From Nitrospira sp. (lineage in GTDB: Bacteria > Nitrospirota > Nitrospiria > Nitrospirales > Nitrospiraceae), in contig BQWY01000001.1 in the NCBI GenBank assembly GCA_036984305.1, forward strand, positions 3,989,501 to 4,053,500: 64,000 nt of DNA, read 5' to 3'. The position numbers were made by a program, and so were the translations under genes. The notes under the pieces are model-generated. The model searched no databases and was not told the DNA's origin. It saw only the letters and a program-made list of their open reading frames with translations. This document shows, one piece after another, positions 6,400 to 29,069 of the stretch; position 1 is the stretch's first letter, and every line of letters begins with the position of its first letter.

Positions 6400-6439
6400 G
6401 CCTCACGCGCCTGACCTGACGAGAGCCCCGCCGGCTCCT

Positions 6440-7831
6440 TCAGTAGATCTGCTCCAGTTGACCCTGCGCTCGCGCCAGATTGATGCGCGACGCGTTGTAC
6501 CGAAACAACGCTTCCACCAGATTGTCACGTCCTCTCGCCAGGGCGGCCTGGGCATTGGTGACGTCGATGTTCGTCGTCAGCCCTGCGGAGAAGCGGTCCC
6601 GGGCAAAGGTCAACTCTTTCTGCGCGAGCGCCAGACCCTTTTGCGCCACCGTCACCTGTTGCCGGGTAGACGTGAGCGTCAGCAAGGCATTGCGGACCTC
6701 CAGGGTCACCTGATCGGACACGTCCTTCATGCGGATCGCTTCTTGGCGCACTCGGCTTCTGGTTTCCGAGATGCGACTCTCACGTTGCCCCCCGTCGAAA
6801 ATGGGGACGGACAGCGTCACGCCGACCGTATGAGTCCCAACAGCCTCGTCCGGCTTGAGCCCAATCCATCCATAATCCCCATTGAAGGACAGCGACGGTA
6901 CTCGCTCACTGCTGACCGAACTCAGGGAGAGCGAGGCCAGCTTGTGTCGCGATTCCTGCGCCCTCAATTCCAATCGATGCTGATGGGCGACCGACAGCGC
7001 TTCATCGGGACCCTGTGTGGGAGTGTCCACCAACTTCAACTCGTCCGTCAGCACCACTCGGACACCGAAGTTGATGCCGAGGGTGCGGGTTAAATTGAGT
7101 TTTGCCGTTTCCACGTCGTTTTCCGCGATCAACAGTTGTTGTCGCTCGTTTTCGAGCTGGACTTCCTCGCGCGTGACGTCCAATCCCGTCGCGACGCCTG
7201 CCGCCTTTCGGTCGCTGGCCAACTTGAGGAGTTCCTGAGCCAGCGTCAGGTTTGCCTGCTTGGCCTTGACGGCCGCCTCGGCCCGGAGCGCTTCGACATA
7301 CAGCAACCCGACCGTCGCCGTCGTATCCCGCTTGGTAATCTCGGCTTCCAACCCCGCCACTTCGACTCCGGCCTTGGCGGCGCGCCACCGCTGAATCAGA
7401 GAGAGACTGAAGATGTTCTGTACGAGATTACCCCGCGCGTCAAAGACGTTGAACGGGTCAGTCTTGACTCCCTGGATCCCGAGCAGGGGAATGCTGCTGG
7501 GGGGGATGCCGAACGTCGCCAAGTTCACCGTTTGATTGCGCCCATTCACAAACCCCGACAGGTTGGGCATTAGAGCCCCAAAACTATGGTCGGCAGCCGC
7601 CTGAGCTGCGGCGATGCGCTCCTTGAGCAAGCGTACGATGCTGTTATTGTCGAGCGCGGCCTGGATCGCGTCCCTGAGACTCAACCGAAGCTCGGGCTCC
7701 GACGGCATGGCCTCCCCGGCCGATGCCGCTCCCCGCCCCGCTGTTCCCCACAGGACGAACACGAGGGCACCTGCCAACATCCAGGCGAATGCGGTTGCTC
7801 GTCCTCGAAACTGGCACCGGTATGAATTCAT
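6440..7831 (-). CDS. TolC-type outer membrane efflux protein
   Basis: 463 residues from the ATG at 7831; a GTG at 7885 is in frame but would place 18 residues before the signal peptide. A basic start is followed by a hydrophobic stretch (ATAFAWMLAGALVFVLWG). The mature protein has two internally similar halves with long helices beginning LSLRDAIQAALDNN and ELRAQESRHKLASL, typical of the TolC duplicated fold. It is the first gene of the exporter operon and provides the outer-membrane duct for the HlyD/ABC complex. Confidence 0.92.
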   Translation of the reverse strand: MNSYRCQFRGRATAFAWMLAGALVFVLWGTAGRGAASAGEAMPSEPELRLSLRDAIQAALDNNSIVRLLKERIAAAQAAADHSFGALMPNLSGFVNGRNQTVNLATFGIPPSSIPLLGIQGVKTDPFNVFDARGNLVQNIFSLSLIQRWRAAKAGVEVAGLEAEITKRDTTATVGLLYVEALRAEAAVKAKQANLTLAQELLKLASDRKAAGVATGLDVTREEVQLENERQQLLIAENDVETAKLNLTRTLGINFGVRVVLTDELKLVDTPTQGPDEALSVAHQHRLELRAQESRHKLASLSLSSVSSERVPSLSFNGDYGWIGLKPDEAVGTHTVGVTLSVPIFDGGQRESRISETRSRVRQEAIRMKDVSDQVTLEVRNALLTLTSTRQQVTVAQKGLALAQKELTFARDRFSAGLTTNIDVTNAQAALARGRDNLVEALFRYNASRINLARAQGQLEQIY

Positions 7832-8058
7832 GTGGGCAATGGACTTGGACCCTTCCGGAAAAAGCGACTGCAAGTGCGGCACCACCGGAGAAAGAAAGAG
7901 AAATTCATTGGGATTTCGTTATCTTGGCGGGGTTGGTTGCAGGCTGAAAATGAAGGAGAGGGTTGTGTCGCTACAACCGAGTCACGCGGCAATGTGGAAA
8001 AAAGCGACAGTCTTGTCGGTCGCGATACCATTCAGGCTTTGGGAAACCATACAGTTGA

Positions 8059-8748
8059 ATGCGCGGCATCCCTTATGCTCCTTCCAATAAGGTGGTGAAA
8101 TTGGCTTCGTATGAGCATGTGGTCACGATCCCGGTCGGATCAGTGCGTCTGGAAGGAATCCTTGCACTTCCTCAGGATCCAATCGGACTGGTACTGTTTG
8201 CGCATGGGAGCGGCAGCGGCCGCTTCAGCCCGCGGAATAATTTCGTGGCACGGCAACTCCATCAGGGACGAGTTGCGACGCTTCTGCTGGATTTGCTGGA
8301 GGAGCACGAGGCCGACGATCGATACCGGGTGTTCGACATCCCTCTACTGACCCAACGCGTGTATGGCGCCACACTATGGATTGCTGACCAACCTGCAACC
8401 CGTCATCTGCCAAGGGGATACTTCGGCGCAAGCACTGGAGCCGCTGCGGCCTTGCAGGCCGCTGCCCAACATCCGGATGTAGTGGCTGCGGTCGTATCCC
8501 GTGGCGGACGCCCGGACCTCGCCAATTCTTACCTTCCTCACGTAACCGCCCCTACCCTCCTGATCGTCGGGGGCAACGATGAACCGGTCATCGAATTGAA
8601 TCAGTCGGCGCTGTTACGCCTCCGTTGCGAGAAGCGGCTCGAGATCGTACCCGGCGCTACACATCTGTTCGAAGAACCTGGAACACTCGAAACCGTGGCG
8701 TCGCTGGCCCGGGGCTGGTTCGAAACCCATCTCCCGCATTCCAGCTAA
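8059..8748 (+). CDS. alpha/beta hydrolase, dienelactone-hydrolase-like
   Basis: 229 residues. The fold's nucleophile elbow is GASTGAAAA (Ser near residue 124), the acid is in GGNDEPV and the catalytic His in GATHLFEEPG, so the triad is complete. The oxyanion region is LFAHGSGSGR. The protein ends soon after the His, as in short YdeN/DLH-like hydrolases. Start choice is uncertain: ATG 8059 has no clear ribosome site, whereas TTG 8101 has AAGG eight bases before it. It is divergent from the TolC operon and separated from the next gene by about 230 bases. The substrate is unknown. Confidence 0.85.
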   Translation: MRGIPYAPSNKVVKLASYEHVVTIPVGSVRLEGILALPQDPIGLVLFAHGSGSGRFSPRNNFVARQLHQGRVATLLLDLLEEHEADDRYRVFDIPLLTQRVYGATLWIADQPATRHLPRGYFGASTGAAAALQAAAQHPDVVAAVVSRGGRPDLANSYLPHVTAPTLLIVGGNDEPVIELNQSALLRLRCEKRLEIVPGATHLFEEPGTLETVASLARGWFETHLPHSS

Positions 8749-8764
8749 CTGGGGGCTCCTCCCG

Positions 8765-8785
8765 TCTCACCTTTCACGTTGCACG
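8765..8785. repeat. 7-bp periodic repeat downstream of hydrolase gene
   Basis: Three heptads read TCTCACC, TTTCACG and TTGCACG just after the hydrolase stop codon. They are of the same type as at 1329 and 5240. Confidence 0.5.
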
Positions 8786-8977
8786 GCTCCAAGACTGTCC
8801 CGTCACGCCGCTGGGTCTCGACGTCCTGGTGGGGAGAAATTCCTCATCCAGTAAGGCACCCTAGTCCGGTACACGGAATCTCCTACGGTCTCCGCCCACA
8901 TGCCGGCACCATGGCCGCGGCACCTGTCTTGCGAGGAATTATGCCGTGATAGACAGCGTCAACGATTCCACCGAGTC

Positions 8978-10300
8978 ATGGAATCTATGAATCCAGACCC
9001 AGATTCAACGTCCAGACCTCCCTCCCCCGCTGATCGGGAACCGCCGTCCCGCTCGGAGTGGCTTCCGTCGGCCGCGAGGGTTCCATCGCGAGATCGCCGT
9101 CCACGTGGACTGGCGGAGCGAGAAGCGCCGCGCCGAACGTGGCGATGGGGGCTTGTAGCGATCCTTGTGCTGAGCGCGGCGGCGCTCATTTGGTATTGGC
9201 TCGTCCCTTCCGCCGGACCGGTGCCGTACAAGACCAGCATCGTCGATCGCGGACCGATCACTGCCATCGTCACGGCGACGGGGACGCTCAACCCTGTCGT
9301 CACCGTCCAAGTCGGAAGCCAGGTCTCAGGCAAGATCAAGGCGCTCATGGCCGACTACAATTCGGACGTCACGGAGGGACAATTGGTCGCCCAAATCGAT
9401 CCCGCTCCATTCAAGGCCAAGGTAGTACAGGCCCGGGCAGCGCTCAAGACTGCAAAAAGCAATCGTGTCAAAGCGGAAACCGCGCTGGCGCAACGACAAC
9501 TCGAATTGAACCGAGCCACGAAACTCAGGGCCGACCAGTATATTCCGCAAGCGGATTTGGACTTGGCCCGTACGAGTTATCGGGATGCGGCTGCACAGGT
9601 CGATGTGGCAATCGCGCAAATCGAGCAGGCCGAGGCGGCATTAGCATCGGCCGAGCTGGAACTGTCCATGACGAGCATCTACTCGCCGGTTGACGGGGTG
9701 GTGATTTCCCGCGACGTGGAAGTGGGGCAAACCGTCGCCGCGGCGTTTCAGACTCCTCGATTCTTCGTGATCGCCCAGGACCTGACCAAGATGCAGGTGA
9801 ATGCCAGTGTGAGCGAAGCCGACATCGGCGGCATCACCGAAGGCTCCGATGCGGAATTTCTCGTGGATACCTATCCTAACGAGCCCTTTCGCGGCATCGT
9901 GACGCAAGTGCGCAACGCCCCGATCACTGTCCAGAACGTGGTCACCTATGACGTGATCATTCGAGTAGACAACCCCGACCTCACATTAAAGCCCGGGATG
10001 ACGGCCAACGTATCGATCGTGCGTGCCAAGCGAGACGATGTCTTACGAGTACCCAATACCGCCCTCCGCTTTCGGATGCCGAATCAGACCACTGACCTGA
10101 AGACGACCCAAGTCTGGGTCGTCTCGGATTCCGCCATGGCACAACCGGTCGAGATCGTCCCCGGCGTGGCCGATGCCGTGTACACTGAAGTCAGCCGGGG
10201 GGACCTGCAGGAAGGCGACGCCGTCATCATCGGGCTGACAGATGAGGCAGCCCTCGATTCGAAGAGTCTTCCACCGGGTTTCCTGCCTCGCATGCGATGA
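8978..10300 (+). CDS. MacA-like RND/ABC efflux adaptor protein
   Basis: 440 residues from the ATG at 8978; the frame opens at 8900, and another ATG lies at 8987. A long Pro/Arg-rich cytoplasmic start precedes one membrane segment (WGLVAILVLSAAALIWYWLV). Then come the lipoyl half (GTLNPVVTVQVGSQVSGKI), a helical hairpin, the second lipoyl half (TSIYSPVDGVVISRDVEVGQ) and a MacA-type beta-barrel (FVIAQDLTKMQVNASVSEADI). It partners the MacB-like permease that starts 31 bases downstream. No ATPase gene lies between them. Confidence 0.92.
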   Translation: MESMNPDPDSTSRPPSPADREPPSRSEWLPSAARVPSRDRRPRGLAEREAPRRTWRWGLVAILVLSAAALIWYWLVPSAGPVPYKTSIVDRGPITAIVTATGTLNPVVTVQVGSQVSGKIKALMADYNSDVTEGQLVAQIDPAPFKAKVVQARAALKTAKSNRVKAETALAQRQLELNRATKLRADQYIPQADLDLARTSYRDAAAQVDVAIAQIEQAEAALASAELELSMTSIYSPVDGVVISRDVEVGQTVAAAFQTPRFFVIAQDLTKMQVNASVSEADIGGITEGSDAEFLVDTYPNEPFRGIVTQVRNAPITVQNVVTYDVIIRVDNPDLTLKPGMTANVSIVRAKRDDVLRVPNTALRFRMPNQTTDLKTTQVWVVSDSAMAQPVEIVPGVADAVYTEVSRGDLQEGDAVIIGLTDEAALDSKSLPPGFLPRMR

Positions 10301-10331
10301 CTCCCGCCCAACAACCAAGGAGGTCCGCGAC

Positions 10332-11576
10332 ATGATCTCCGGCCTCGGGGCCTGGCTGATGACCGCGCATTTAGCGCTGCGGGTGCTGGGACGCAATCCG
10401 CTGCGGACCGGCCTCACGATGCTCGGCATCGTCATCGGTATCGGGGCGGTAGTGACGATGGTCAGCGTCGGGCAGGGTGCCAGCGCATCCATTCAAACCG
10501 AACTATCCAGCCTCGGCCTCAATGCGTTGATCATCGTGCCGGGAGCGACCAGCGTCGGCGGAGTGCGCTCCGGTCTCGGCGGCGCCTCCACGCTCACGGT
10601 CCAAGACGCCCGCGAAATTGAACTCCGCGTCCCCGGCGTGTCCCTTTTGACCTACGCCACTCGGGGGGTGCTTCAGGTCGTCCATGAAAACAAGAACTGG
10701 AACACGGTCGTGACCGGGGTCACGTCGGCTCTGCCGAACATCCGCGATTGGCCGATTGCACAAGGCACGTTCTTCTCGGATTCGGATGACGCGGTGGCCG
10801 CGAAGGTCGCAGTCCTGGGGAAGACGGTCGTCGACAACCTGTATGAACGCGGCGAAACCGTCTTGGGATCGCACATTCGCATCAAGAACGTGCCGCTCCG
10901 GGTCCTCGGCGTGTTAAAAGCAAAGGGGCAATCCCTCACGGGACAGGACCAGGATGACATCATCTTCATTCCGTTTTCGACGGCGGAGCGCCGTGTCGTG
11001 GGTACCAACATCCTCGGGACCGTCGGCGTGATCTTCATTCGCGCGACACCCGATGCCTCGGCGGGCCGACTGGTCGCCGACATTCGTCAACTGCTCCGTA
11101 CCCGCCACCGCCTGCATCAGTCGGAGGACGACGATTTCACTATTCGGACGATGGAGGATATCGCCAAGATGTCGGCCGGGGCAGGCCGCACCATGATGCT
11201 GTTGCTTCTCAGCGTCGCGTCGATCGCCTTGCTCGTGGGGGGCATCGGGATCATGAATATCCTGCTGGTCTCGGTAACTGAACGGACCCGCGAAATCGGC
11301 ATCCGGATGGCCCTCGGCGCGAAACGAAAAGACATTCTGATGCAATTCTTGGTCGAGGCGATCATCCTAAGTTCGGTCGGTGGCATCATCGGCGTGCTGA
11401 TCGGAATAAGCGGGGCCTGGGCGCTCACTGCACTGGCCGGGTGGCCCGTGACCATTTCGTTCGAGGCGGTCCTCGTCGCGGTGGGCTTTTCTCTCGCAGT
11501 CGGTGTCTTCTTCGGTCTCTATCCAGCCAACCGAGCCTCCCGTCTCAACCCGATCGATGCGCTACGCTACGAATAA
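10332..11576 (+). CDS. MacB-like ABC permease without ATPase domain
   Basis: 414 residues. The start is ATG 10332 with AAGGAGG nine bases upstream; an upstream in-frame ATG at 10242 is inside the previous gene and is rejected. MacB-type layout: first membrane helix at about 20-45 (LTMLGIVIGIGAVVTMVSVG), a large periplasmic domain (about 50-280), then three C-terminal helices with FtsX signatures (TREIGIRMALGAKRKDI). True MacB is about 650 residues with an N-terminal ATPase; this is only the membrane half. The ATPase must come from elsewhere in the genome. Confidence 0.92.
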   Translation: MISGLGAWLMTAHLALRVLGRNPLRTGLTMLGIVIGIGAVVTMVSVGQGASASIQTELSSLGLNALIIVPGATSVGGVRSGLGGASTLTVQDAREIELRVPGVSLLTYATRGVLQVVHENKNWNTVVTGVTSALPNIRDWPIAQGTFFSDSDDAVAAKVAVLGKTVVDNLYERGETVLGSHIRIKNVPLRVLGVLKAKGQSLTGQDQDDIIFIPFSTAERRVVGTNILGTVGVIFIRATPDASAGRLVADIRQLLRTRHRLHQSEDDDFTIRTMEDIAKMSAGAGRTMMLLLLSVASIALLVGGIGIMNILLVSVTERTREIGIRMALGAKRKDILMQFLVEAIILSSVGGIIGVLIGISGAWALTALAGWPVTISFEAVLVAVGFSLAVGVFFGLYPANRASRLNPIDALRYE

Positions 11577-15270: not shown

Positions 15271-16032
15271 TCACGGTCCCTCTTGACGGGCACCGGGGCT
15301 CACCCAACTGTTCTTCATGAACACCGCGGGACCGAAATAGGCAAAGGCATCCTTCATATTCGAGAAGAGCCGATTGATCGGGCCGATCGCTTGATCCGTC
15401 ACATATTGGAGCGCCAGCACGATCCGCTCTTCTCCATCCCACAACGGCGTGACTCCATGCCAGAGCCGATCTCCGTTGAACAGCACGACATTGCCCGGAG
15501 ACAGTGGAATGCGGATCTCGCGAATCTCCTGACCGGTGTGATCCGTGCACACGCGCGCCACCAAGCGACAATGGACCGACTGCTCGACCAGCCCGACGAA
15601 GACCGAATAACGACGTCCTCGATAATAGGACCGGTCGTAGTGAAACCCGATGTGGTCGCCGGGGCGTGTGTAATAGTACAGCGCGCAGGCGTGTGGGTCA
15701 TCTTCCGGACAGAGCAGCAGATCCGATTCGACAATGCGGCTCAGAAACCACCGGAGTGCGGGCGACCGATACAGCGACATGATCACCGGCGCCCGTCCCC
15801 GGAGCGTGTAGTATCCGACACTGCCCCCCTTCTTGTACCCGGGGATGCGGCTGCGGTGCAGAGCAGACTCGACCTGACGGGCCTCCGTCACAAGTTCCCC
15901 AACAAGCGAAGCCGGCAGCATCTGCTCCAATGTGACGAACTCGTTCTGCAGCCAATACTGGCTGTGCACGATTCTGAGATCCAACTCTTGCCGCAGACGC
16001 TCCAACTGCGGTTCGAGATCGACCTCCTTCAC
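15271..16032 (-). CDS. 2-oxoglutarate/Fe(II)-dependent dioxygenase
   Basis: 253 residues from GTG 16032, which has AGGGGAG six bases upstream; a GTG at 16071 would add 13 residues. The iron site is visible: HYD in GFHYDRSYYRG gives the HxD pair, and the distal His is in GDRLWHGVTPL. The 2-oxoglutarate-binding Arg is in EERIVLALQYV. This is the prolyl-4-hydroxylase/PHM7-like jelly-roll family. The substrate is unknown. It is a single gene between the CopD-like gene and the cupredoxin gene on the same strand, with gaps of about 115 and 130 bases. Confidence 0.87.
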   Translation of the reverse strand: MKEVDLEPQLERLRQELDLRIVHSQYWLQNEFVTLEQMLPASLVGELVTEARQVESALHRSRIPGYKKGGSVGYYTLRGRAPVIMSLYRSPALRWFLSRIVESDLLLCPEDDPHACALYYYTRPGDHIGFHYDRSYYRGRRYSVFVGLVEQSVHCRLVARVCTDHTGQEIREIRIPLSPGNVVLFNGDRLWHGVTPLWDGEERIVLALQYVTDQAIGPINRLFSNMKDAFAYFGPAVFMKNSWVSPGARQEGP

Positions 16033-16164
16033 ATGCCACTCCCCTGCGCGACGCTTCTGATTTCTGACCACACTCGCGCGCCGGGACCCAGAACGAGGCC
16101 CGACGTCAATCTGTGCCGTGGTCAGGCCACGGGCGTGATCATCTGGATCCTGGCACGCTCGCGC

Positions 16165-17100
16165 TCAGTGGTGTTGCTTCTTTAGCAACGGGTCGATTTC
16201 CTTTTGCTGGTCCGGCGTCACTTCGAATCGACTGTACGGATGATCCAGAACCTCATTGGCATACAGCCGTCCGGTGGGAGCCTCCACCACGATATTCTGC
16301 TCCGTCGTCTCCTTCGGACTGATGGTCACCGTGTGCTCGATCTTCGTCCGCACATAGGGATGCCAGACCACCAGCTTGTAGGTGCCCGGCGGCACGTTGG
16401 TCATGGTAAAGCGCCCCTGTTCGTCGGTTTTCGCGAAGTAGGGATTGCGAACGGCGACGCCCCAACTCTCCATATACGCATGAAAGCCACACTGCATCAC
16501 GAACACGTGCCGTCCTCGGCTGAGATTCACCAACTGCTTCATCGGCGCCCCGGCCATATGCTTGTGGTACAGGGCCGCGTCGCTGCGATCCTTGAAATTG
16601 CGCGGGTGTTGGGGATTCATCGGCAGGGGGACGTTGAACAAGACGCGCGGACCCAGATGCGACGTTTCGTACGCCTGTATGTCGTGCATGACCGGATCCA
16701 TGTTGACCACGGTCACGGTCTGATCGTCGCGCACGACCGTCGTGAAGGGGACGAACAGACAATCCTTCGCCTCGATTTGCGGCACGCCGCCTCCCTCGAA
16801 CGGCTTCCCCTTCTCGACGTCCTCGAGATAGACGACGACATCCCGGAATTCGCCGCCCGGCCCAACCTGGAACGGTTGGAGAATCCGCCAGCCTTGCCCA
16901 TCCGAGATGCGCCCGCAGTAATACGGGTCCGGCAACGTCGTCAGGTTGTATCCTTTTGGTTTGGGCACCGTTCCGTTCAGGGTGACCGCTCCGGTGAGCG
17001 TTCCTCCATCGGCCACCGTGATTTCCTCATAGGCCTGCGCGGGACCGCTCGCACGAGCGGCCAACACGGCGACCACCATCATGTACATCAGATGTTTCAC
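16165..17100 (-). CDS. exported cupredoxin protein with carboxypeptidase-regulatory-like domain
   Basis: 311 residues from GTG 17100, preceded by GGAGGGAGG. The signal peptide ends PAQA before YEEIT. An amicyanin-style copper site is suggested by His in NMDPVMHDIQAYE (about 149) and the loop CGFHAYM (C-x2-H-x2-M, about 219-225). A carnitine-transthyretin-like repeat follows (GRFTMTNVPPGTYKLVVWHP). The protein is periplasmic. It lies 208 bases downstream of the giant multicopper oxidase on the same strand, separated by a strong hairpin. It is a good candidate for the redox partner or copper donor of that oxidase. Confidence 0.85.
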   Translation of the reverse strand: MKHLMYMMVVAVLAARASGPAQAYEEITVADGGTLTGAVTLNGTVPKPKGYNLTTLPDPYYCGRISDGQGWRILQPFQVGPGGEFRDVVVYLEDVEKGKPFEGGGVPQIEAKDCLFVPFTTVVRDDQTVTVVNMDPVMHDIQAYETSHLGPRVLFNVPLPMNPQHPRNFKDRSDAALYHKHMAGAPMKQLVNLSRGRHVFVMQCGFHAYMESWGVAVRNPYFAKTDEQGRFTMTNVPPGTYKLVVWHPYVRTKIEHTVTISPKETTEQNIVVEAPTGRLYANEVLDHPYSRFEVTPDQQKEIDPLLKKQHH

Positions 17101-17216
17101 TCCGGCCTCCCTCCTGAAGAACTGGTTGAGTGTATGAGTGACGTGTAAAAGTAAGGTTACCTCCCCGACCGTTCCTTCCTCAACCCCACCGCACCGGCGC
17201 TTCAGGCTGGAACACG

Positions 17217-17251
17217 AAGGGGAGCCACATGTGGACCACGCGGCTCCCCTT
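17217..17251. terminator. strong hairpin between oxidase and cupredoxin genes
   Basis: Perfect 10-bp arms (AAGGGGAGCC and GGCTCCCCTT) enclose a 15-base loop that can itself pair in part (GTGG with CCAC). No U-tract follows on either strand. It may therefore act as an mRNA stabiliser or partial terminator that sets the ratio of oxidase to cupredoxin, rather than as a full intrinsic terminator. Confidence 0.55.
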
Positions 17252-17308
17252 TGCAGTGCTGCTCGCGGAGGACCGAACGGGCGTTCGATCCTCACGCCAG
17301 ATCGACCA

Positions 17309-20300
17309 CTACCTCATGGACATGGGCAGCGCCTGGGCCTGCTCCAGTTGGTGCGGCGTGTCTTCAGCCGTCTTCATGGGCGCCTTCGCCCCTCCCAACG
17401 GCTTGATCCGCTGATCACCAACCGGAAGCACCCGGAGGTACCCCCACTGGCCCGCCTGCAGATAGTTCAGGCGTGCATTGGCCCAAATATAGTCTCCAGG
17501 AAGTGCATACGGTCCGCCTGCCCCTTGGCGCAGGAACACGTCCAGCACTTCGGAGCCGGCGAATTCCACCACGCTGATCATATCGGCACCCGGCATGTAC
17601 GGCTCGATCGGCCACTCATGGCCTTCGACCTGGAACATCCCGTTCTGTTCGCTATTCGCGCCGATCACGTGGATCCGCACCGGATCGCCGGCATGGACCT
17701 CGATCAACGGCGTCACCGGATCTTCCGGCTTGTCCACGACACACGGCTGGAAGATTTTGTCCAGCGAACACCCCTGGTCCTCGCGGTACTTCTCCGGTTC
17801 GGCGCGGTAGTTCACCGCGGTCAAGCCGGCGACGTTCTGCACGTAGGGCATGAAGCTGGTCCCGATAATGTTGTCTTCGTCCTGGAAGAACAACGCCACG
17901 TCACGATAGTTCCGCTTGCCCATATTTTCAGGCAAGCTGCGGTCGACGAGGACGTCCGCACGCCAGGTGTTCTTTTGAGACACGTCTTCGCCGGTCACGG
18001 GGTCGCGGTACTGCGACCCGCGGGGTCCGACGACGACCGCCCCGAACAATCCGTTGCGCGGATTGGTGACGATGTTGCCGCCGTCCCACACCAACGACGT
18101 CGTCTCCTTGTTGTCCGGATGCGCGTAGTAGGTGTAGGTACGCGATCCGCCCGGAGCCACGGTCTGATCACCGGGGTTGTTGCCCACGTTCAGGCCCTGG
18201 GAATCCCGCGGATCGTAGGCCAGCCCAGGCGCAAAGAACGACGCCCGGCTGTCCTTCAGTTTGTTCTTCAGATTCACTTTGACACAGTCGCCCAGGTTGA
18301 CGCGCAACGTCAGCGGGCTCGGCATGATGTTGCCCGACACCTTCGTGACCTCGTCCTCGAGCGCAAAGATTTTTCCATCTGGAACGGTCATTTCAATCTT
18401 ACGCTCGAAGTCGACCTCGATCGGTTCAGACACCTTCGGGTGAAGCTGCAACGGGCGATCCATCGCCACCACGTTGAAGTTCTTCACCGGCGCGTCCGCC
18501 GGACAGACCGACTTCGGAACCTCCGGAATACCGATCGGATTGGTACCCTTGGGTAACGGCTGCAAATCCGCCACCGGCTTGTCCAATACGCGGATGATGC
18601 CCCATCCACCTTCGGCGAAGTGCGAGCTTCTCCCGTTGAAGTGGATGTAATCCCCCGGCATCCCCTGGAAGCCTCCGGCCTTGGTCACGAGGTCATACCG
18701 CTCGGCGATCCCGACGTGAATCGAGTTCTTCCGATTGGCGTCACCTGCATACCGTTCCGTGAGAAACGTATGACCGCCGATGGTCCAGACGTGCGATTCG
18801 TTCATCAACTGGTGCAACAGACGGAACACCATGGTGTCGCCGACGTACGCGCGCAACAGCGGCGTGTCGGGATCTCCGTGGATGGCGCTGCTGAACAACT
18901 TGGACGTGTCCGGGTTGTTCGCCAGACGCTGCGCAAACGGCTCGGCGCGGAAATTAAATCCGCTGCCCGTCGTATGCGTCCCGCCGTTGATGTACGGATT
19001 CGGTGCATTCAGGATTTTCTCCGGCATCTGGAAGGACACGGTCTTCCCGGCCTCCAGCGCCACTTCCACCGGCTGCCCCGGCGGATTACCCGCTTGGATG
19101 ACGTTCACGGTATGGGGCACCGTGTCATGGATGGACACCATGAGTTCACGGAAGCTCCCGTTCACGCCGTAGCCGATCGGCTCGTTCCCGCGGATGTCCG
19201 CGATCGGGCCGCTGTACACGAGCTTGCCGTTCTTCGGATCGTGATACGTCGACCCATACGGCTCCACGATCGTGGCGCCGAAGCCGCCGTGTGGCCACGT
19301 CGTCGCCCCGAACGCGTGATCGTGCCAGAACACGGTCCCGTAGTCCGCATCCACCCAGTACCGGTACCGGACGAATTCCGGTGTGACGATATCGCTGGCC
19401 GGATGGTTGTGTTTCAACCCGGTGAAGAAGGTGATCGTATCGCCCTTGATCTCCTTGATCCGGGCGATTTCTGAGCAGCTCTTATCGCGTTTCAACGACG
19501 CGGTCGCGTCGTTGTCCTTCTCCAGACAATCCGCACCGACCATCAATTCGGTGTTGGGGTGATACTTCGTCGCCCCCTGCGCCATCTTGACCTTGATCGT
19601 TTTGGCGCCCTTCTTCACGGCCTCCGTCAGCTTGCTGTTCATCGGAACGGGCAAGCCATGCTTTTTCGGCTTGGAGAACATCGTGAACGGACGCACGGAC
19701 ATCTCCCACTCGAACGCCGAGATCACGCCGTCGCTGTTCCCGGTATCGAATTGGAAGAAGTGGGGATGGATGTTGATCTTCGACGCCTGGAAATTCGTGA
19801 AGTCATCATCGTCCCACTCACTGGTCAGAATCGTATCCACGCAGTCATACACGTTGGCGCGCAGCACCGCCGGATACTTCAAATCATCATTGCCTCTCGT
19901 GAGCCGCTCTTCCTCGTGCAGGACATAGATCAAACCATCCTTGTCCACGATCGGCGGCTGATTGCCCTGCTTCTTGGACAAGGCAATGGGAAGGCGGATG
20001 AAGTGGATGTTGTTGATCGGCGGTACGTTGGCGTTGTCCGGACAGAGCGACCACCGTCCCTGTTCGCCCGGCTTGGCCGGTTCGGAGGTCCGATTGCCGT
20101 TCTCGTCCTGATGGATCGGCTCCAACCAGGGAGCGCCGCTGTGGTTCGCGGAGAACGGCACGCGCTTGCCGAAGTGCGGTTTCAACACGGGCCAGCTGAT
20201 CTTGCCCGTCGTCGGATCGAACAGGATCACCGGTCGCGTGCTGTCGTCCCACTTCTCGGCCGCGGGGTATTTCGGGTTTTTGGCGGTGCTTTCCCGTTCC

Positions 20301-22279
20301 CCTTTCGCCACGTTGCCGTCCCATTTCCAATCCCACACGGTGGCGTCGTAAGCCATGATCTGGCCCTTCTCGTCGTCCGTGTGACCGGGCTTGCCCATGG
20401 CGGGAATCCACATCTCGACCCAATCCTTGACACTCACAACCGCCGGATTGGATTTCCAGTTGGTCTTCTGGTTCTTGTCGACGATCTTGAAGGTCTTGCC
20501 GAACCAGTCGACCGTCGTGCCGATCAACTTGTCCGAACCGACTCCCTGCTTGACCCGCCCCTCGCGATCCGGCAGCTCTCGCAGGTCCGGCATCGTATCG
20601 GTGTGGGCCCTTCCGACCTGCAGCGTGTTGTAAACACGCCCGTACCCCCACATCCCCGCCACATAGTGGTGCGCCACGTGGCAATGGAACAGGAAGTCGC
20701 CCGCCAAGTGCTGGCAGCCTCCACCGCCGCACTCCGGCTCAAGATCCAGCGCCTCGGACGGACCGATCACCTCGACGTCGACCCGGTCCGACTTGGTGCG
20801 GACGATCGGGTACTTCACAGGTCCGTCCTTGCCGGCCGCCCACAGTTGATTGGGTTCGGTACCTGGGCTGCGCTGCCACCGGATCGTACCGCTGTGCGGA
20901 TGGTGGGAGTGGAACACTTCGGAGCCGCCGTGCACCAAGCGATACTTGGTGGGATCCCCGAGGTAGGCGCGCGGCAGCGTCGTCGGAATCTCGCCGAACG
21001 TGTAGGCGCTGTACGCCAACGACTCGTCCTCGAAGCCGAAGTATTCGTGTTGCAAGTGCATCTCATCGATCCCAAACGGCTCGCTGCGATAGTTCAACGC
21101 GCGACCGCCGGGGCGATACGCGTCCGTGAGCGGATCGCGTTGTGGCAAGAAGTCGCCCTTCTTGTTGACCGGACGAAACGCTTCGTCGCCGATCTCGTGG
21201 TAGAAGATCACGAACTCGCGAAAGTCCGGACCGGACCCATTGTCGATCATCGCCTGCCACCCGCTCTTCATATCGGGGGCGGACCCGGTGCCGAGCGGAT
21301 CAAGATACTTGGAGCCCGTCGGCTCGACGATCAGCGCGCCGAAGAGACCCATCACGGTCAACTCGCGCGCATGGCTGTAGGAATGGAATCGCCGCACGCC
21401 CTCCTGCGTGGACGGATGGATGTACCATTCCATGTCCACGGTCTTGCCCGGTTCGATGATCGCATCGGAATTGGTGGTGGTCGCCGCCTTGCCGGTCGAC
21501 GAGATCACCATGCTCCCACCGTTGATGTGCAAACTGCCGCTCTCCGCGTCCATCTTGTTACGCAAGGTGATCTTCAAACAGTCACCTTGGTTGGCGCGAA
21601 TCACGAGCGGTTGAATGTAGTCCCCCTGTAAACCCGTGCTGACCGCCCCGGGATCGAAGCCGTCTGACTCGCGTGCCTCCTCGTTCCTGGCCTCCTCGGC
21701 GCGGACTTTGTCCAAGTTTCCTGTCAAGGTGTACATGTAGCCAGGATAGAAATCGAGCCAACGATTGAGGGTGATCTCCACGTTGACCATGGAAATGTCG
21801 TACTGCTTCGTCGGCACGCCGGCCGGGCACTTGGCACCTCCTCCCCCGGCCAAGTCAGCCTGAGCGTCGACGGCCAGCAGGAAGCTCGAGCCATCCTGCC
21901 CCATGTACTGGTGCATCATCGACGTATTGTTGAAGGCACCCGAGGTGTTTTGCGCCTGGGCATCTTTCTGGGCCTGCTCTTCCAGCCGGCGCATCAGACG
22001 ATGATGCTGCATCTCGATCTTCTCGGAGCGCTCTCCACGGCCTTCGATGCTGTCCTCGACAACCGTTTGCCCCTTCAGTGTCTGCTGCCAGCCCGGTAAC
22101 GAACCGGACATGCTGACCGGTGAGGCATGGCCCTCATGTCCCTCGACCGGAGGGCCTCCGTCTTGTGCGGCAAACAGCCCTGGCACTGCCACCAGACTGC
22201 CCGCCAACACCATCGCCTGAATGGGCTTCCACCCGCGTCGACGGTGCCTCCGTTTATGATGAGAATACTCGCGCGTCAT
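17309..22279 (-). CDS. giant multicopper oxidase, MofA/MnxG (manganese oxidase) type
   Basis: 1656 residues, close to the size I recall for Leptothrix MofA. AGGAGG precedes the ATG. The signal peptide (about 1-38) has an unusual His/Arg-rich start. Several cupredoxin domains follow. One complete copper set is visible: HSHHPH at 457-462 (H-x2-H-x-H), HCHVAHHYVAGM at 532-543 (type 1 Cys533, His538, Met543), HPH at 838-840 and HDH at 986-988. These supply the four HxH pairs of a trinuclear centre, but in permuted order, with the C-terminal-type motifs first. Residues 1260-1656 form cupredoxin-like domains without Cys ligands. It probably oxidises Mn(II) or another metal in the periplasm or outside the cell. 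Confidence 0.92.
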   Translation of the reverse strand: MTREYSHHKRRHRRRGWKPIQAMVLAGSLVAVPGLFAAQDGGPPVEGHEGHASPVSMSGSLPGWQQTLKGQTVVEDSIEGRGERSEKIEMQHHRLMRRLEEQAQKDAQAQNTSGAFNNTSMMHQYMGQDGSSFLLAVDAQADLAGGGGAKCPAGVPTKQYDISMVNVEITLNRWLDFYPGYMYTLTGNLDKVRAEEARNEEARESDGFDPGAVSTGLQGDYIQPLVIRANQGDCLKITLRNKMDAESGSLHINGGSMVISSTGKAATTTNSDAIIEPGKTVDMEWYIHPSTQEGVRRFHSYSHARELTVMGLFGALIVEPTGSKYLDPLGTGSAPDMKSGWQAMIDNGSGPDFREFVIFYHEIGDEAFRPVNKKGDFLPQRDPLTDAYRPGGRALNYRSEPFGIDEMHLQHEYFGFEDESLAYSAYTFGEIPTTLPRAYLGDPTKYRLVHGGSEVFHSHHPHSGTIRWQRSPGTEPNQLWAAGKDGPVKYPIVRTKSDRVDVEVIGPSEALDLEPECGGGGCQHLAGDFLFHCHVAHHYVAGMWGYGRVYNTLQVGRAHTDTMPDLRELPDREGRVKQGVGSDKLIGTTVDWFGKTFKIVDKNQKTNWKSNPAVVSVKDWVEMWIPAMGKPGHTDDEKGQIMAYDATVWDWKWDGNVAKGERESTAKNPKYPAAEKWDDSTRPVILFDPTTGKISWPVLKPHFGKRVPFSANHSGAPWLEPIHQDENGNRTSEPAKPGEQGRWSLCPDNANVPPINNIHFIRLPIALSKKQGNQPPIVDKDGLIYVLHEEERLTRGNDDLKYPAVLRANVYDCVDTILTSEWDDDDFTNFQASKINIHPHFFQFDTGNSDGVISAFEWEMSVRPFTMFSKPKKHGLPVPMNSKLTEAVKKGAKTIKVKMAQGATKYHPNTELMVGADCLEKDNDATASLKRDKSCSEIARIKEIKGDTITFFTGLKHNHPASDIVTPEFVRYRYWVDADYGTVFWHDHAFGATTWPHGGFGATIVEPYGSTYHDPKNGKLVYSGPIADIRGNEPIGYGVNGSFRELMVSIHDTVPHTVNVIQAGNPPGQPVEVALEAGKTVSFQMPEKILNAPNPYINGGTHTTGSGFNFRAEPFAQRLANNPDTSKLFSSAIHGDPDTPLLRAYVGDTMVFRLLHQLMNESHVWTIGGHTFLTERYAGDANRKNSIHVGIAERYDLVTKAGGFQGMPGDYIHFNGRSSHFAEGGWGIIRVLDKPVADLQPLPKGTNPIGIPEVPKSVCPADAPVKNFNVVAMDRPLQLHPKVSEPIEVDFERKIEMTVPDGKIFALEDEVTKVSGNIMPSPLTLRVNLGDCVKVNLKNKLKDSRASFFAPGLAYDPRDSQGLNVGNNPGDQTVAPGGSRTYTYYAHPDNKETTSLVWDGGNIVTNPRNGLFGAVVVGPRGSQYRDPVTGEDVSQKNTWRADVLVDRSLPENMGKRNYRDVALFFQDEDNIIGTSFMPYVQNVAGLTAVNYRAEPEKYREDQGCSLDKIFQPCVVDKPEDPVTPLIEVHAGDPVRIHVIGANSEQNGMFQVEGHEWPIEPYMPGADMISVVEFAGSEVLDVFLRQGAGGPYALPGDYIWANARLNYLQAGQWGYLRVLPVGDQRIKPLGGAKAPMKTAEDTPHQLEQAQALPMSMR

Positions 22280-22512: not shown

Positions 22513-22526
22513 GCAACTCCCATGCC
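22513..22526 (-). promoter_or_regulatory. sigma-54 promoter for the multicopper oxidase
   Basis: The minus strand reads GGCATG-GGAG-TTGC, against the sigma-54 consensus GGCACG-N4-TTGC: nine of ten defined bases match, and the GG-to-GC spacing is exact. The start of transcription would be near 22501, giving a leader of about 220 bases before the oxidase ATG. A sigma-54 activator gene ends only 210 bases upstream. Confidence 0.7.
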
Positions 22527-22736: not shown

Positions 22737-24134
22737 CTAGTGAGACTCAATCTGGTGGGTACGGAGCTTATTATAGAGACCAGCCCGGCTGATCCCTAAC
22801 AACCTGGCGGCCTTTACACGGTTTCCGCCTGCCCGTTGCAGAGCCTCGAGAATCTTGAGACGCTCGGCTTGCGCGGTCGCATCGCGCACGGCCGCATGAA
22901 GGTCGAGGTCGACGGGCACCGGAGGAGAGTCCGGCTCGCCGAAGAAGTCGATGGCGCTCAGCACGGACCCTTGCGCGGTGACCACCACTCGCTCGATCAG
23001 ATTGAGCAACTCCCGGACGTTTCCCGGCCAGTGATAGCTCAGTAAGGCCTGCATCGCGTCGGGGTCAACCGTGCGCATGGGACGGCGATGGCGACGGCTG
23101 GACCGTTCGATAAAATGCGAGACCAAGACGGGTACATCCTCAGTACGCTCCCGTAGCGGCGGCATGAAGAGCGGCAGCACCGCGAGTCGATAATAAAGAT
23201 CCTCTCTGAACTGCTTGGCCTTGACGAGGTCGAACAGATCTTTGTTCGTTGCGGAAATCACCCTCACGTCCACGCGACTCGATCGGCTGCTTCCGACTGG
23301 TTTGATCTCCCCTTCCTGCAACACTCGTAACAGCTTGGCCTGGAACGACGGCGACGTATCCGCGATTTCGTCGAGAAGGATCGTGCCGCCGTCCGCCTCC
23401 TCGAAAAGGCCACGACGTGAAGTGACGGCGCCGGTGAATGCACCTTTGACATGGCCGAACAGCTCGCTTTCCAGCAACGTCTCGGGCAGTGAACTGCACT
23501 CCACGACGACTAACCGTCCCTTCCGGCGCGAGCTCAATCGATGGATCGTGCGAGCAACCAGTTCCTTCCCGGTCCCGCTTTCGCCCTGGATGAGCACGGT
23601 CGCCTGGCTGTCGGCGATCAACCGCACCATCTCGAACAGACGCTGCATCGAGGGACTGATGCCCAGCATCTCGTCGAGCCCTTCGCTGATCGTATCGACC
23701 GGCTGCGTCTCCGGATATGCCGTTTCCTTTGTTCGCTCGGACCCGTTCCGAAACAGTACAAGCACCGAGTCGGTCTGCCCCGCGCCGGATTTCAACGGAT
23801 GAACCTGGGAAATCCCACAGGCGTGACCGTCCCCGCCGGAGGAACAGGCGAACGATTTCACTTCTCCGGAAGCAAAGACTTCCATTGCCGGGCAGGTTCC
23901 ACAGGGGTCGTTCCGCTGAAGCACGGCCTGGTAGCACTTGGCCGGCCTGGCAGGCACCAGCGGTTGGGGATCGTCCGGCCATGCCGTCCGATTGGCGTAG
24001 ATAACAGTCTGATCCGGCCCGATGACCATGACCCGTTCGGTTTGGTGTTCGGCCAATACGCGGATCGCCTCGAGGCGCGCCTCAAGCACAGGATCATGAG
24101 CGGTGTGTGGCAACTGTGGGGCTCGGCCGGCCAT
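22737..24134 (-). CDS. sigma-54 activator with cysteine-rich PAS sensor domain
   Basis: 465 residues from the ATG at 24134 (GGGGG four bases upstream; a GTG at 24152 is the alternative). There is no receiver domain. Residues about 15-125 are a PAS-like sensor with five Cys at 67, 78, 81, 97 and 106 (pattern C-x10-C-x2-C-x15-C-x8-C). The AAA+ core has Walker A GESGTGKE (184-191), an intact GAFTGA loop (231-236) and Walker B GGTILLDEIAD. The Fis-type HTH is NRVKAARLLGISRAGLYNKL. It binds DNA and drives sigma-54 polymerase in response to a signal, possibly redox or metal. The oxidase is the next gene downstream. Confidence 0.92.
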   Translation of the reverse strand: MAGRAPQLPHTAHDPVLEARLEAIRVLAEHQTERVMVIGPDQTVIYANRTAWPDDPQPLVPARPAKCYQAVLQRNDPCGTCPAMEVFASGEVKSFACSSGGDGHACGISQVHPLKSGAGQTDSVLVLFRNGSERTKETAYPETQPVDTISEGLDEMLGISPSMQRLFEMVRLIADSQATVLIQGESGTGKELVARTIHRLSSRRKGRLVVVECSSLPETLLESELFGHVKGAFTGAVTSRRGLFEEADGGTILLDEIADTSPSFQAKLLRVLQEGEIKPVGSSRSSRVDVRVISATNKDLFDLVKAKQFREDLYYRLAVLPLFMPPLRERTEDVPVLVSHFIERSSRRHRRPMRTVDPDAMQALLSYHWPGNVRELLNLIERVVVTAQGSVLSAIDFFGEPDSPPVPVDLDLHAAVRDATAQAERLKILEALQRAGGNRVKAARLLGISRAGLYNKLRTHQIESH

Positions 24135-24173
24135 CGTGCCCCCATTAAACACTAGTTGATGTTCGAAAATCAG

Positions 24174-24849: not shown

Positions 24850-27630
24850 CTAGGCGGGCTCGATCGGCGCTGGGTCGAGCGGAAGGAGGACGGTCACAGT
24901 GGTACCGTGATGCGCCGAGCTTGAGACGGTAATCTGTCCGGCATGCTCTTCGACGATACCTTTGACCACGGTCAGCCCCAATCCCGTGCCCTCTCCGGTC
25001 TCCTTGGTCGTGAAAAATGGGTCGAAGATTTTCGTTACCACGTCCGAAGCGATCCCGTGGCCGGAATCGCTCACCTGCATCTGCACGTGACGATCTATCC
25101 GTGCCGCACGCACGTGCAGCGTCCCCCCATCGACCATGGCATGCATGCTGTTCACGATGAGATTGATCAGGACCTGGGTCATTTGATCTGGATCTGCCTG
25201 GATCATCGGCAGCGAGGGATCCAGCGTCGTTTCAACCAGGATGTGCTTTTGGGTGAATCGTTCCCGGAACATTTCCAGACTATCCTCGATCGTGTGACGG
25301 AGGTCGACCGCCCTTCGCTCCGGCGGCCGGCGGCGCGCGAAAGCCAGCAGTTGATTCATGACTTTCGTAATCCGCTCGACCTGCGCGACGATCGTCCGCA
25401 GTCCCTTGGTCAAGACCTGATCATCTGTGCGCTGCAGGAGATATTCGGCGCGACCGAGAATGACGTTCATCGGTGTACCGATCTCGTGAGCCATGCCGGA
25501 GGCCAAGGTTCCCAATTCAGCGACGCGCTCGGTCCGGCGCAGTTGGTCTTCCAGACGCTTGCGCTCCGTGATGTCAACCACCGATGCCAACACGCCCTGT
25601 CCGTCGGGTGTCGTAATCGGGCTCAAGCCAATTTCAACCGGAAATTCCGTTCCGTCCTTGCGAAGGCCGTGCAGGTCTCGGCCACGTCCCATGGGCCGGG
25701 TCTCCGGGCGGTTGAGAAAACAAGCTCGATGCCCGGGATGTTGGATTCGCACCGAAGCCGGAACGAGTTGTTCCACGGGACGGCCGAGCAGTTCGTCGCG
25801 CGCATATCCGAACTGTTCTTCGACCTTTCGATTGACCAAACGAATAATGCCGACCTGGTCGACGAGCAACATCCCGCTGGGCGCCGATTCCACGACCTGA
25901 CTGAACCGCAGTTCCGCCGCCCGTCGGTCGAGGACCTCCCGCTCGAGCCTCGCATTGACGTGTGACAACGTCGCGGTCCTCTCCCGGACCTTGATATCCA
26001 GTTCTTCCCTGGCCCGCTCGACGGCCTGCTCCGCCCTCGTCCGCTCGGTGATGTCGCGGCCCTCCGCCACCAACATCACGACCGCCCCCCTTTCATCTCG
26101 GACCGGTTTCAGGGAAAAATCGAATACGGCGAGCGCACCGTCCCGGGCGCGATGCGTGGTCTCGAATCGAACAAACTCTCCCTTGGCTGCGGCCTCCACC
26201 GATTGGCGCCCACGCGCCTGAATCTCGGCTGAATGGTTCCACCATGGCGTCTCCCAGAGTGGCCTGCCCATGACGTCGCCGGCGGGCATTCCGATGAAGT
26301 CGAGCGAGGATTGATTCGCCTCGAGGAGTATGCCTCCGGGGGACAGCAACCCAATGAATTGATAGGTGGCATCGAAAATCGCGCGAAAGCGCCGCGAACC
26401 TTCGCGCAGCTCCTGATTGGTGTTGGCCAATTCCTGGGTTCGTGCCCGGACTCGTTCCTCCAGTTCGACGTTGAGCTGAGCCAGGGCGATCTCAGCCTGC
26501 TTCCGATCGGTCACGTCATGGTACGTACCGACTGCCCGGAAAGGGTTGCCCTGGGCGTCGCGCTCCACGACCCGTCCGCTATCCATGATCCATTTCCAGG
26601 CACCGCTCTTCGTTCGAAGCCGATATTCCGCTCGATAGACCGCCGTCCGCCCCTCCAGATGGCTCTGCAGCGCCTCCATGACCTGTGGAAGATCGTCGGG
26701 ATGAACCAACTGTTCCCAGGCACGCACGTGCGGTTCAATTTCTTCACACGTGAATCCGAGCATGCCGGCCCATCGCTCGTCGCAGTAAACCGACCCAGTC
26801 TGAATGTTCCAGTCCCACAACCCTTGGTCTGCACCAATGAGGGCCAACTCGAGTCGTTGTTGACTTTCCCGTAGAGCACGTTCGGCTCTCCGCCGCTCGC
26901 TCACCTCATTGGAGAGCACGAACATACCCTCTGGCACAGGCTGAATGCCGATCTCGAAGAGACCGGTCGATCCATCGGGGAAGGTGAAGTCCATTTCGAG
27001 ATGCGCAGGCGTACGCTCCTTCAAACACCGTTGTAGCGCCTCGAAGACCGCGCTCTGCTCGAGGCCTGGGTACGCCTCCATCATCGTTCGGCCGAGCAGC
27101 TGTGACACGGTACTCCGACCGTGTCTCGCTCCGGCCTCGTTGATATACTTAATGCGCCAATCGAACCCGATGATCTGACATCCCTCCAACAGATTGTCGA
27201 ACGTCCCTCGGAGACGCGCCTCGCTTTCCGACAACTGCATTTCCATCGATCGACGTGCCACGGCATCACGGCCGGCGGGCGCGCGGAGCTGTCTGCGACT
27301 CAATAAGAGCCAGGCGAATCCCCACAGGATGATTACCGTCACGACCCGATTGACAGCGGTGTCGGTTGGGTGGAGGATCGAAGAGGACAGCCACACACCG
27401 ACCGCAGTCAGCGCGGTGAATGCAGCGGCCAATTCCAGAGAGAGCTGGCGCCTGGGCAGTTCATAGCTCAGAGATAACGGCAGGAGATACAGAATAGGAA
27501 CGACCCACTCGGCCGGTGTGAAGACATCGAGCAGAAACACCGCAGCACCCGTACACGCAATCCCCCACGGGGTACCAATTCGGTGAAGAAGCGGGGCGCG
27601 GGTGACCTGAGCCACGAGTCGCGAATCCAA
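24850..27630 (-). CDS. membrane multi-PAS sensor histidine kinase
   Basis: 926 residues. Three or four membrane helices occupy about 15-110. At least four PAS domains follow (about 140-255, 260-385 with the PAS_3-type [12 protein letters not shown], 415-530, 565-690), partly joined by coiled coils. The H-box is [11 protein letters not shown], the N-box is [11 protein letters not shown], and the G-boxes are DSGHGI and GEGTGLGL. This is an NtrB/ZraS-like kinase. It begins 14 bases after the NtrC-type regulator, so the two are cognate and co-transcribed. The several PAS domains imply integration of more than one signal. Confidence 0.93.
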
Positions 27631-27644
27631 AAAGGACGAGCCGC

Positions 27645-29069
27645 CTAGCGCTGCGCCTTCTCTTCCTCGATCTCCCCTAATTTGCGATAGAGGGTTTTGC
27701 GGTCGATGCCGAGGATATGGGCCGCCTGATACTTGTTGCCGCCCGTCTTGTCCAGGATTCGAAGAATGTATTCCATTTCGACATGATGCAGCGGCAACGT
27801 ACGCTCCGCTGCCTCGTCGATGACGCGCCGCTCCCCTCGTGCACCTTGGATGGCCGGGGGTAAATCAACAGCCACTATTTTTTCGCTGCGCGACAATGTA
27901 ACGGCCCGCTCAATGACGTTCTCCAATTCCCGCACGTTGCCCGGCCACGGATAGTCGATCAAGAGGGCTAACGCGCTTTCCGCAATACCGCGCACCGGTT
28001 TGTGCGCCAGGCGCGCACACTTCTCCAAGAAGGATTCCACCAGGAGTGGAATATCTTCCCGTCGTTCTCGTAAGGGCGGCAGACGTATTTCGATGACATT
28101 CAGCCGATAAAAGAGATCTTCTCGAAATCGTTTGGCCTTCGCCTCTTCCGCCAAATTGACATTGGTCGCCGCAATGATCCGCACATCGACCGAAATGGGA
28201 CGAGCCGACCCGACGCGACGGATTTCCTTCTCCTGGATCGCACGGAGCAACTTGGCCTGTAACATGACGGGCAGTTCGCTGATCTCATCGAGGAACAGCG
28301 TCCCCTTCTCGGCCTCCTCGAACAGTCCCCGCTTATCCATCTTGGCATCCGTGAACGCCCCTCGAACGTGTCCGAACAATTCGCTTTCCAACAACGTTTC
28401 CGGAATCGCCGCGCAATTGACCGGGATGAACGGAGCCTGCTTCCGTTCACTGTTGAAATGAATGGCCTTGGCGACCAATTCTTTGCCGGTCCCGCTTTCG
28501 CCGCTGAGCAAAATGTTCGTGGGGCTATCGGCCACGCGCTGAATCAAATCGAATACGTCGCGCATGGCCTTGCTCTTGCCGATAATCTGGTGAAAGCTGT
28601 ACTCACGCCCAACGGCACGCCGGAGCTGGGAGACTTCGCGTCTCAGTTTCGCCTCGCGGATCGCGCGTTCGATAGTATGAATCAGTTCCTCACTCTTGAC
28701 GGGCTTGGTCAGGTAGTCATACGCGCCGTGTTTCATCGCCTCTACGGCCGTTTCGACCGATCCGAACGCGGTCATCAAAATCACATTGACCGCCGGGTGG
28801 CCGCGCTTGATCTCTGTGAGCAATTCCAGCCCTTGTATCCCTTTCATGCGCAAATCTGTCAGGACGACGTCGATGTCCGTTTGGCTCAGCTCCTTCAGGG
28901 CTTCGGCCCCACTGGCTGCCGTCACGACGCGATGTCCGCGATCAGACAACAAATCGTGGACCACTTCGCGCATCGCGGTATCGTCATCCACGACAAGCAC
29001 CGTCCCATGGTCTGCATGCACCGCTGTCGATTGCTCGCATGTCATGGACGAGGTCTGGGGGTTTTCCAT
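27645..29069 (-). CDS. NtrC-family response regulator with GAFTDA loop
   Basis: 474 residues, with GAGGATGAC before the ATG. Receiver: acidic pocket VDDD, phospho-acceptor Asp72 in VLTDLRMKG, Lys122. The AAA+ core has Walker A GESGTGKE (190-197) and Walker B GTLFLDEISE. The sigma-54 contact loop reads GAFTDA (237-242) in place of GAFTGA. The Fis-type HTH is GNKYQAAHILGIDRKTLYRKL. It is cognate to the multi-PAS kinase downstream. A near-perfect sigma-54 promoter about 220 bases upstream suggests autoregulation. Confidence 0.93.
   Translation of the reverse strand: MENPQTSSMTCEQSTAVHADHGTVLVVDDDTAMREVVHDLLSDRGHRVVTAASGAEALKELSQTDIDVVLTDLRMKGIQGLELLTEIKRGHPAVNVILMTAFGSVETAVEAMKHGAYDYLTKPVKSEELIHTIERAIREAKLRREVSQLRRAVGREYSFHQIIGKSKAMRDVFDLIQRVADSPTNILLSGESGTGKELVAKAIHFNSERKQAPFIPVNCAAIPETLLESELFGHVRGAFTDAKMDKRGLFEEAEKGTLFLDEISELPVMLQAKLLRAIQEKEIRRVGSARPISVDVRIIAATNVNLAEEAKAKRFREDLFYRLNVIEIRLPPLRERREDIPLLVESFLEKCARLAHKPVRGIAESALALLIDYPWPGNVRELENVIERAVTLSRSEKIVAVDLPPAIQGARGERRVIDEAAERTLPLHHVEMEYILRILDKTGGNKYQAAHILGIDRKTLYRKLGEIEEEKAQR

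Follow-up and report, generated by a model that had tools for sequence, protein, structure and literature searches.

The window, a stretch of 64,000 nucleotides of DNA from a Nitrospira sp., encodes a protein that, judged by its sequence, is a real and copper-complete MnxG-like six-domain multicopper oxidase, and its lineage is already known to carry this family. Because the order of its copper motifs is the normal one for the bacterial family that contains MnxG, the protein is a plausible manganese oxidase but no new kind of protein; the interest of the locus lies in a conserved partner gene and in regulation. Our preferred reading, to which we give about an even chance, is that the protein is a periplasmic oxidase of the MnxG superfamily that most likely acts on Mn(II), with a copper site between domains 2 and 3, a cupredoxin partner and a switch consisting of a PAS kinase and sigma-54. 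The features of the locus are collected in Table 1.

Table 1. Features of the oxidase locus, in positions of the window
Feature	Positions	Strand	Remarks
Secreted cupredoxin-type protein (MHDIQ...CGFHAYM) with carboxypeptidase-regulatory-like domain	16165..17295	-	immediately downstream of oxidase
Six-domain multicopper oxidase gene, paralogue A of Nitrospiraceae	17309..22279	-	1656 aa
Domains 4-6 (residues 1056-1640)	17360..19114	-	without copper ligand sets
Domain 3 (residues 741-1055)	19115..20059	-	remaining trinuclear ligands
HDH, residues 986-988	19316..19324	-	trinuclear
HPH, residues 838-840	19760..19768	-	trinuclear
Insert between domains 2 and 3 (residues 566-740)	20060..20584	-	unrelated to cupredoxin domains
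Domain 2 (residues 386-565)	20585..21124	-	type-1 copper ligands and half of the trinuclear ligands
HCHVAHHYVAGM, residues 532-543	20651..20686	-	C533, H538, M543 type 1; H532, H534 trinuclear
HSHHPH, residues 457-462	20894..20911	-	H457 type 1; H460, H462 trinuclear
Domain 1 (residues 145-385)	21125..21847	-	degenerate HxH-pair relic, HIN 251-253 and HSY 299-301
Probable signal peptide, residues 1-38	22166..22279	-	basic and hydrophobic N-terminus; sequence read by eye
Sigma-54-type promoter core GGCATGGGAGTTGC	22513..22526	-	upstream of oxidase gene
Sigma-54 enhancer-binding activator	22737..24152	-
Multi-PAS sensor histidine kinase	24850..27630	-
NtrC/AtoC-type sigma-54 response regulator	27645..29069	-

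One copper ligand set in six cupredoxin domains

The oxidase reading frame begins with ATG behind a good ribosome-binding site (GAGGAGG), and its motifs lie exactly at the residues given for them in the first-pass annotation. Twelve residues make up one complete multicopper-oxidase ligand set. Because these residues are invariant in 26 full-length sequences (paralogues at 52-68% identity and orthologues from relatives), are preserved at every one of 80 named Nitrospira loci and each align with a ligand of MnxG from the mnxEFG operon of Priestia, the motifs are not a product of chance. The same alignment columns hold the 12 ligands in homologues from Streptomyces, the haloarchaeal Halalkalicoccus, Hymenobacter and Indioceanicola, and overall identity to these homologues and to Priestia MnxG is 27-37%. 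That a complete site is kept in the 80 loci and in divergent paralogues makes it very improbable that the protein is a degenerate or structural cupredoxin array devoid of oxidase activity, a reading to which the lack of copper ligand sets in domains 4-6 and the degenerate pair in domain 1 would otherwise lend some weight. An extra HxH motif (HNH, residues 957-959) retains H959 alone in the comparison and is no ligand pair. His459, which lies beside the copper ligands within the HxHHxH stretch (positions 20903-20905), is invariant in Nitrospiria and also found in the Streptomyces and Halalkalicoccus homologues; Phe takes its place in MnxG and in Hymenobacter.

We compared the domains with each other using hhalign between slices of a 12-sequence alignment. 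Domains 1, 3, and 5 are mutually similar (probability 99.0-99.8%), as are domains 2, 4, and 6 (96.8-99.4%), while odd-even pairs stay below 19% and the 175-residue insert matches none of the six domains. Because odd and even domains match separately, the oxidase consists of three two-domain repeats, i.e. six cupredoxin domains. In bacterial six-domain oxidases, type-1 copper is bound in domain 2 and the trinuclear ligands come from domains 2 and 3 (Vasin et al., PMC3600357), and the window protein has the same three published features: 3x2 repeats, a type-1 site in domain 2 alone, and trinuclear ligands in domains 2 and 3. Because the site is split between domains 2 and 3 in those oxidases too, their normal order is the one that the first-pass annotation had called permuted; the order itself was read correctly, its unusual status was not, and we rejected the idea of a permutation peculiar to this protein in view of the published architecture (PMC3600357) and the shared ligand columns of the homologues. 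Likewise, copper-free cupredoxin domains do end the protein, although they extend over ~600 residues (domains 4-6) instead of the ~400 first proposed. In sister-order copies (L038-L050), domain 1 has an intact HIH/HSH pair that has decayed to HIN/HSY in the window protein; this pair is possibly a relic of a second trinuclear site, and domain 6 has no HCH.

AlphaFold models were calculated for residues 143-1250 with 17 sequences (mean pLDDT 48.7) and for residues 384-1016 with 80 sequences (mean pLDDT 60.7). The insert was mostly confident in the latter model, and most of domain 2 was below 40 in both; because domain 2 failed in this way, the geometry of the copper site is taken from homology. 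The oxidase is probably secreted or periplasmic, as suggested by the signal-like N-terminus. No membrane anchor or lipobox was seen in its sequence, so that of the proposed outer-surface or periplasmic location, secretion is supported and the outer surface is not.

Relatives of the oxidase and its distribution

The sole full-length solved relative of the protein is MnxG (PDB 9bxa; phmmer E 4.9e-83, profile E 3.2e-133). The best solved match is therefore a manganese oxidase and not a member of a non-metal-oxidising family; a best match of the latter kind had been named beforehand as one that would speak against the annotation. Together with the aligned ligands and the 3x2 repeats, the match to MnxG bears out the proposed MnxG-type architecture and motif order. 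Distant homologues were collected by a plasmid search with the window protein. Among them, an oxidase of 1228 aa from a Priestia megaterium plasmid (L143) matches the 9bxa MnxG over its full length with 1705 bits and is preceded by two small genes matching MnxE and MnxF of 9bxa. The window protein scores 117.6 bits against the NCBIfam MnxG equivalog NF041487, for which the cut-off is 3100. Because the genuine MnxG of the Priestia mnxEFG operon also falls below this cut-off, with 332.6 bits, we regard the model as narrow.

The suggested Nitrospirota lineage was confirmed by genome searches, which place the DNA in Nitrospirales. The oxidase is present in 59 of 61 genomes searched (its own 4.35-Mb Nitrospirales genome and the nearest relatives), usually in at least two copies. 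In a sample of the phylum, strong matches were confined to the class Nitrospiria, including orders outside Nitrospirales, and three matches outside the class were weak (E 1e-16 to 1e-18). Named carriers in a contig scan, in which the matches listed were all Nitrospirota, include Ca. N. defluvii, N. moscoviensis, and N. lenta. A tree, rooted only at its midpoint, separates paralogue A, to which the window gene belongs and which occurs in Nitrospiraceae and one more family, from paralogue B, which occurs more widely in Nitrospirales; further groups are the sister-order copies and a deep-branching paralogue C. By reading, paralogue B (L031, L019, L140) is accompanied by a HEAT-repeat-like protein, one or two more cupredoxins, and an O-methyltransferase-like gene, with a DUF420-like protein next where the locus is long enough and an APC-permease-like gene opposite.

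The presence of the family in nitrite oxidisers, and proposals of Mn(III)-linked ROS defence or Mn oxidation, are already published. Multicopper oxidases of an MnxG-like kind were reported in nitrite oxidisers in 2013, and a defence against ROS via Mn(III) was proposed, according to the accessible part of PMC3578206. That part, which concerns Ca. N. defluvii and Nitrospina gracilis, mentions copper-based electron carriers in the cluster and does not state which paralogue is meant; Ca. N. defluvii has both an orthologue of the window gene (L067, 79-82% identity) and a B paralogue (L140). A case for Mn oxidation and removal by Nitrospira in sand filters has been built on the MnxG genes of their genomes (PMC12070406). 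In a tunnel biofilm, nearly every nitrifier genome contained putative Mn oxidases, MnxG among them; the same study cautions that these are not demonstrated activities and that none of the nitrifier families it examined has been shown to oxidise Mn (PMC11995701). Finally, Ca. Manganitrophaceae, also of the class Nitrospiria, carry two novel MCOs per genome (PMC9040806), and many of the sister-order genomes that we found likewise have two copies (57-62% identity), suggesting that the Manganitrophaceae MCOs belong to the same family as the window oxidase.

A cupredoxin gene downstream and a sigma-54 promoter core upstream

The gene immediately downstream of the oxidase, with a true start probably near codon 67-70, encodes a protein in which MHDIQ and CGFHAYM form a plastocyanin/amicyanin-like ligand pattern. 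Because the protein shows no sequence resemblance to solved cupredoxins beyond this pattern, its copper site is a prediction. Among the 100 oxidase copies whose flanks are long enough, 85 are followed within 3 kb by such a gene in the same orientation (median gap 123 bp), and CxxHxxM is present in every one of the 85. Because the own genome holds only about six such CxxHxxM genes in 4.35 Mb, this pairing is far above chance. It was seen for paralogues A and B, one C-type copy, and the sister orders, often with two or three cupredoxins per oxidase. Just beyond the cupredoxin, positions 15271-16071 encode a protein resembling 2-oxoglutarate/Fe(II) oxygenases (Pfam halogenase HalD), which L021 alone shares among the other loci compared. 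A further copy of this secreted family of cupredoxins fused to a carboxypeptidase-regulatory-like domain (58%; 18117-19133 of L138) is separated by some 7 kb from what is likely an NXR operon (NxrB-like, 6040-7329; NxrA-like, 7405-11115). By reading, the genome has two very likely NXR copies among its molybdopterin enzymes (L138 and L139), neither of which adjoins either oxidase gene. A search for ammonia monooxygenase in this genome gave no match, although its control was silent too, and comammox is unlikely.

The class-wide pairing, which includes the sister-order paralogues, would suit an electron-conserving metal oxidase in which type-1 electrons pass to the cupredoxin and thence into the respiratory chain, either in place of the trinuclear site or in addition to it; moreover, a part of the Manganitrophaceae MCOs in Mn lithotrophy would require that their electrons arrive at a carrier in the periplasm (PMC9040806). 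We consider this improbable, if worth keeping in mind, because the full trinuclear ligand set is kept everywhere, so that O2 reduction is expected, and because the cupredoxin could be a copper donor instead. It is similarly a long shot that oxidase and CxxHxxM cupredoxin form a Nitrospiria-wide two-part module that passes electrons from Mn(II) to a periplasmic carrier and is sigma-54-inducible in Nitrospiraceae; if it were so, nitrite oxidisers and their Mn-lithotrophic sister lineage would share a route to conserve the energy of manganese.

Upstream of paralogue A, two sigma-54 activators and the PAS kinase are conserved in many relatives. The core GGCA[CT]N5TTGC lies upstream of 36 of 47 loci with >76% identity; because 8 of the 11 core-less loci, judged by clade and by their lower identity, fall outside the true A orthologues, the count becomes 36 of about 39. 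No B locus has the core (0 of 31), and shuffled sequences contain it in about 0.4% of cases. Because it is conserved at A and absent at B, paralogue A is probably inducible and B controlled otherwise. In many relatives, paralogue A is followed by tandem secreted formylglycine-generating-enzyme-like genes (SUMF1/PvdO-like, by reading; L020, L024, L026), which are absent from the window. Neither the sigma-54 site nor the constant cupredoxin pairing is described in the accessible part of PMC3578206, and we found no statement of the pairing or of sigma-54 control in the open literature. Nitrospira are key nitrifiers of filters for drinking water, Fe-Mn deposits are often rich in nitrifiers, and whether these organisms oxidise Mn is a question of applied interest (PMC12070406, PMC11995701). 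Two features of paralogue A, its conserved cupredoxin partner and its sigma-54 control, provide concrete handles for asking whether the oxidase acts on Mn and where the electrons go.

Proposed function and comparison with known oxidases

Judging from its closest relatives, oxidation of Mn(II) is the likeliest function of the oxidase. Two points favour Mn(II) as the substrate: among characterised enzymes MnxG is the nearest, and the genome has distinct genes, away from this locus, for laccase/CueO- and PcoA-like oxidases and for NirK-like proteins (by reading). In the proposed mechanism, a reduced metal ion, most likely Mn(II), would deliver one electron at a time to the type-1 copper of domain 2 (H457, C533, H538, and M543), from which electrons would cross the HCH bridge to a trinuclear centre formed by H460, H462, H532, and H534 of domain 2 and H838, H840, H986, and H988 of domain 3, where O2 would be reduced to water. 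Mn(III) or Mn(IV) would result, serving protection against ROS or metals or arising in an ancillary reaction. The downstream protein would act as a redox or copper-delivery partner, whether by accepting electrons, donating electrons or donating copper, and paralogue A would be switched on via the PAS-kinase/sigma-54 system.

Against manganese stand the unmatched MnxE and MnxF (see below), the low identity to MnxG, and a score under the NF041487 cut-off. That nearly all nitrite oxidisers have the oxidase would fit a housekeeping role just as well. A serious contender, to which we give somewhat less than an even chance, is that the same enzyme with the same copper site acts as a protective periplasmic oxidase on Fe(II), Cu(I), or a reductant linked to nitrogen oxides or ROS: multicopper oxidases are promiscuous enzymes, the D2/D3 site is shared by Fox1, an algal ferroxidase of six domains (PMC3600357), ROS defence has been proposed (accessible part of PMC3578206), copies occur across the class Nitrospiria beyond Mn-rich habitats, and a CopD-like gene lies near the oxidase. 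However, this gene is found at only 4 of the loci compared, the closest characterised sequence is a Mn oxidase, and the CueO/PcoA-like and NirK-like proteins are present separately. Oxidation of Mn(II) thus remains our preferred reading.

MofA of Leptothrix is a giant putative Mn multicopper oxidase. With MnxG of Bacillus and Priestia, the Nitrospira oxidase has in common six cupredoxin domains, type-1 copper ligands in domain 2 only, trinuclear ligands divided between domains 2 and 3, and all 12 ligands in the same order. It differs from MnxG in sequence (identity about 27-33%), in length (1656 aa vs about 1227 aa), in the insert of 175 residues between domains 2 and 3, and in its host, a Gram-negative chemolithotroph, whereas MnxG belongs to the spore. 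Activity of Bacillus MnxG requires MnxE and MnxF (PMC5622069). For these two proteins, no match was obtained at E 0.1 in the own genome and five other Nitrospiria genomes, while a positive control was matched, and no conserved small genes adjoin the oxidase among the loci compared; a cupredoxin-type partner is there instead. Because MnxE and MnxF are unmatched despite the shared site and architecture, the oxidase, as far as its gene and genome tell, shares the copper site and architecture of MnxG but is no Mnx complex. Three-domain oxidases such as CueO, PcoA, and laccase are unlike the window protein, with about 500 aa, the HxH pairs first, and HxxHxH and HCH at the C-terminus; Pfam Cu-oxidase_2 scores below its cut-off on the window protein. 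Ceruloplasmin and hephaestin, in turn, have 3x2 cupredoxin repeats and one trinuclear centre as here, but this centre lies between domains 6 and 1 and is accompanied by three type-1 sites (PMC3600357).
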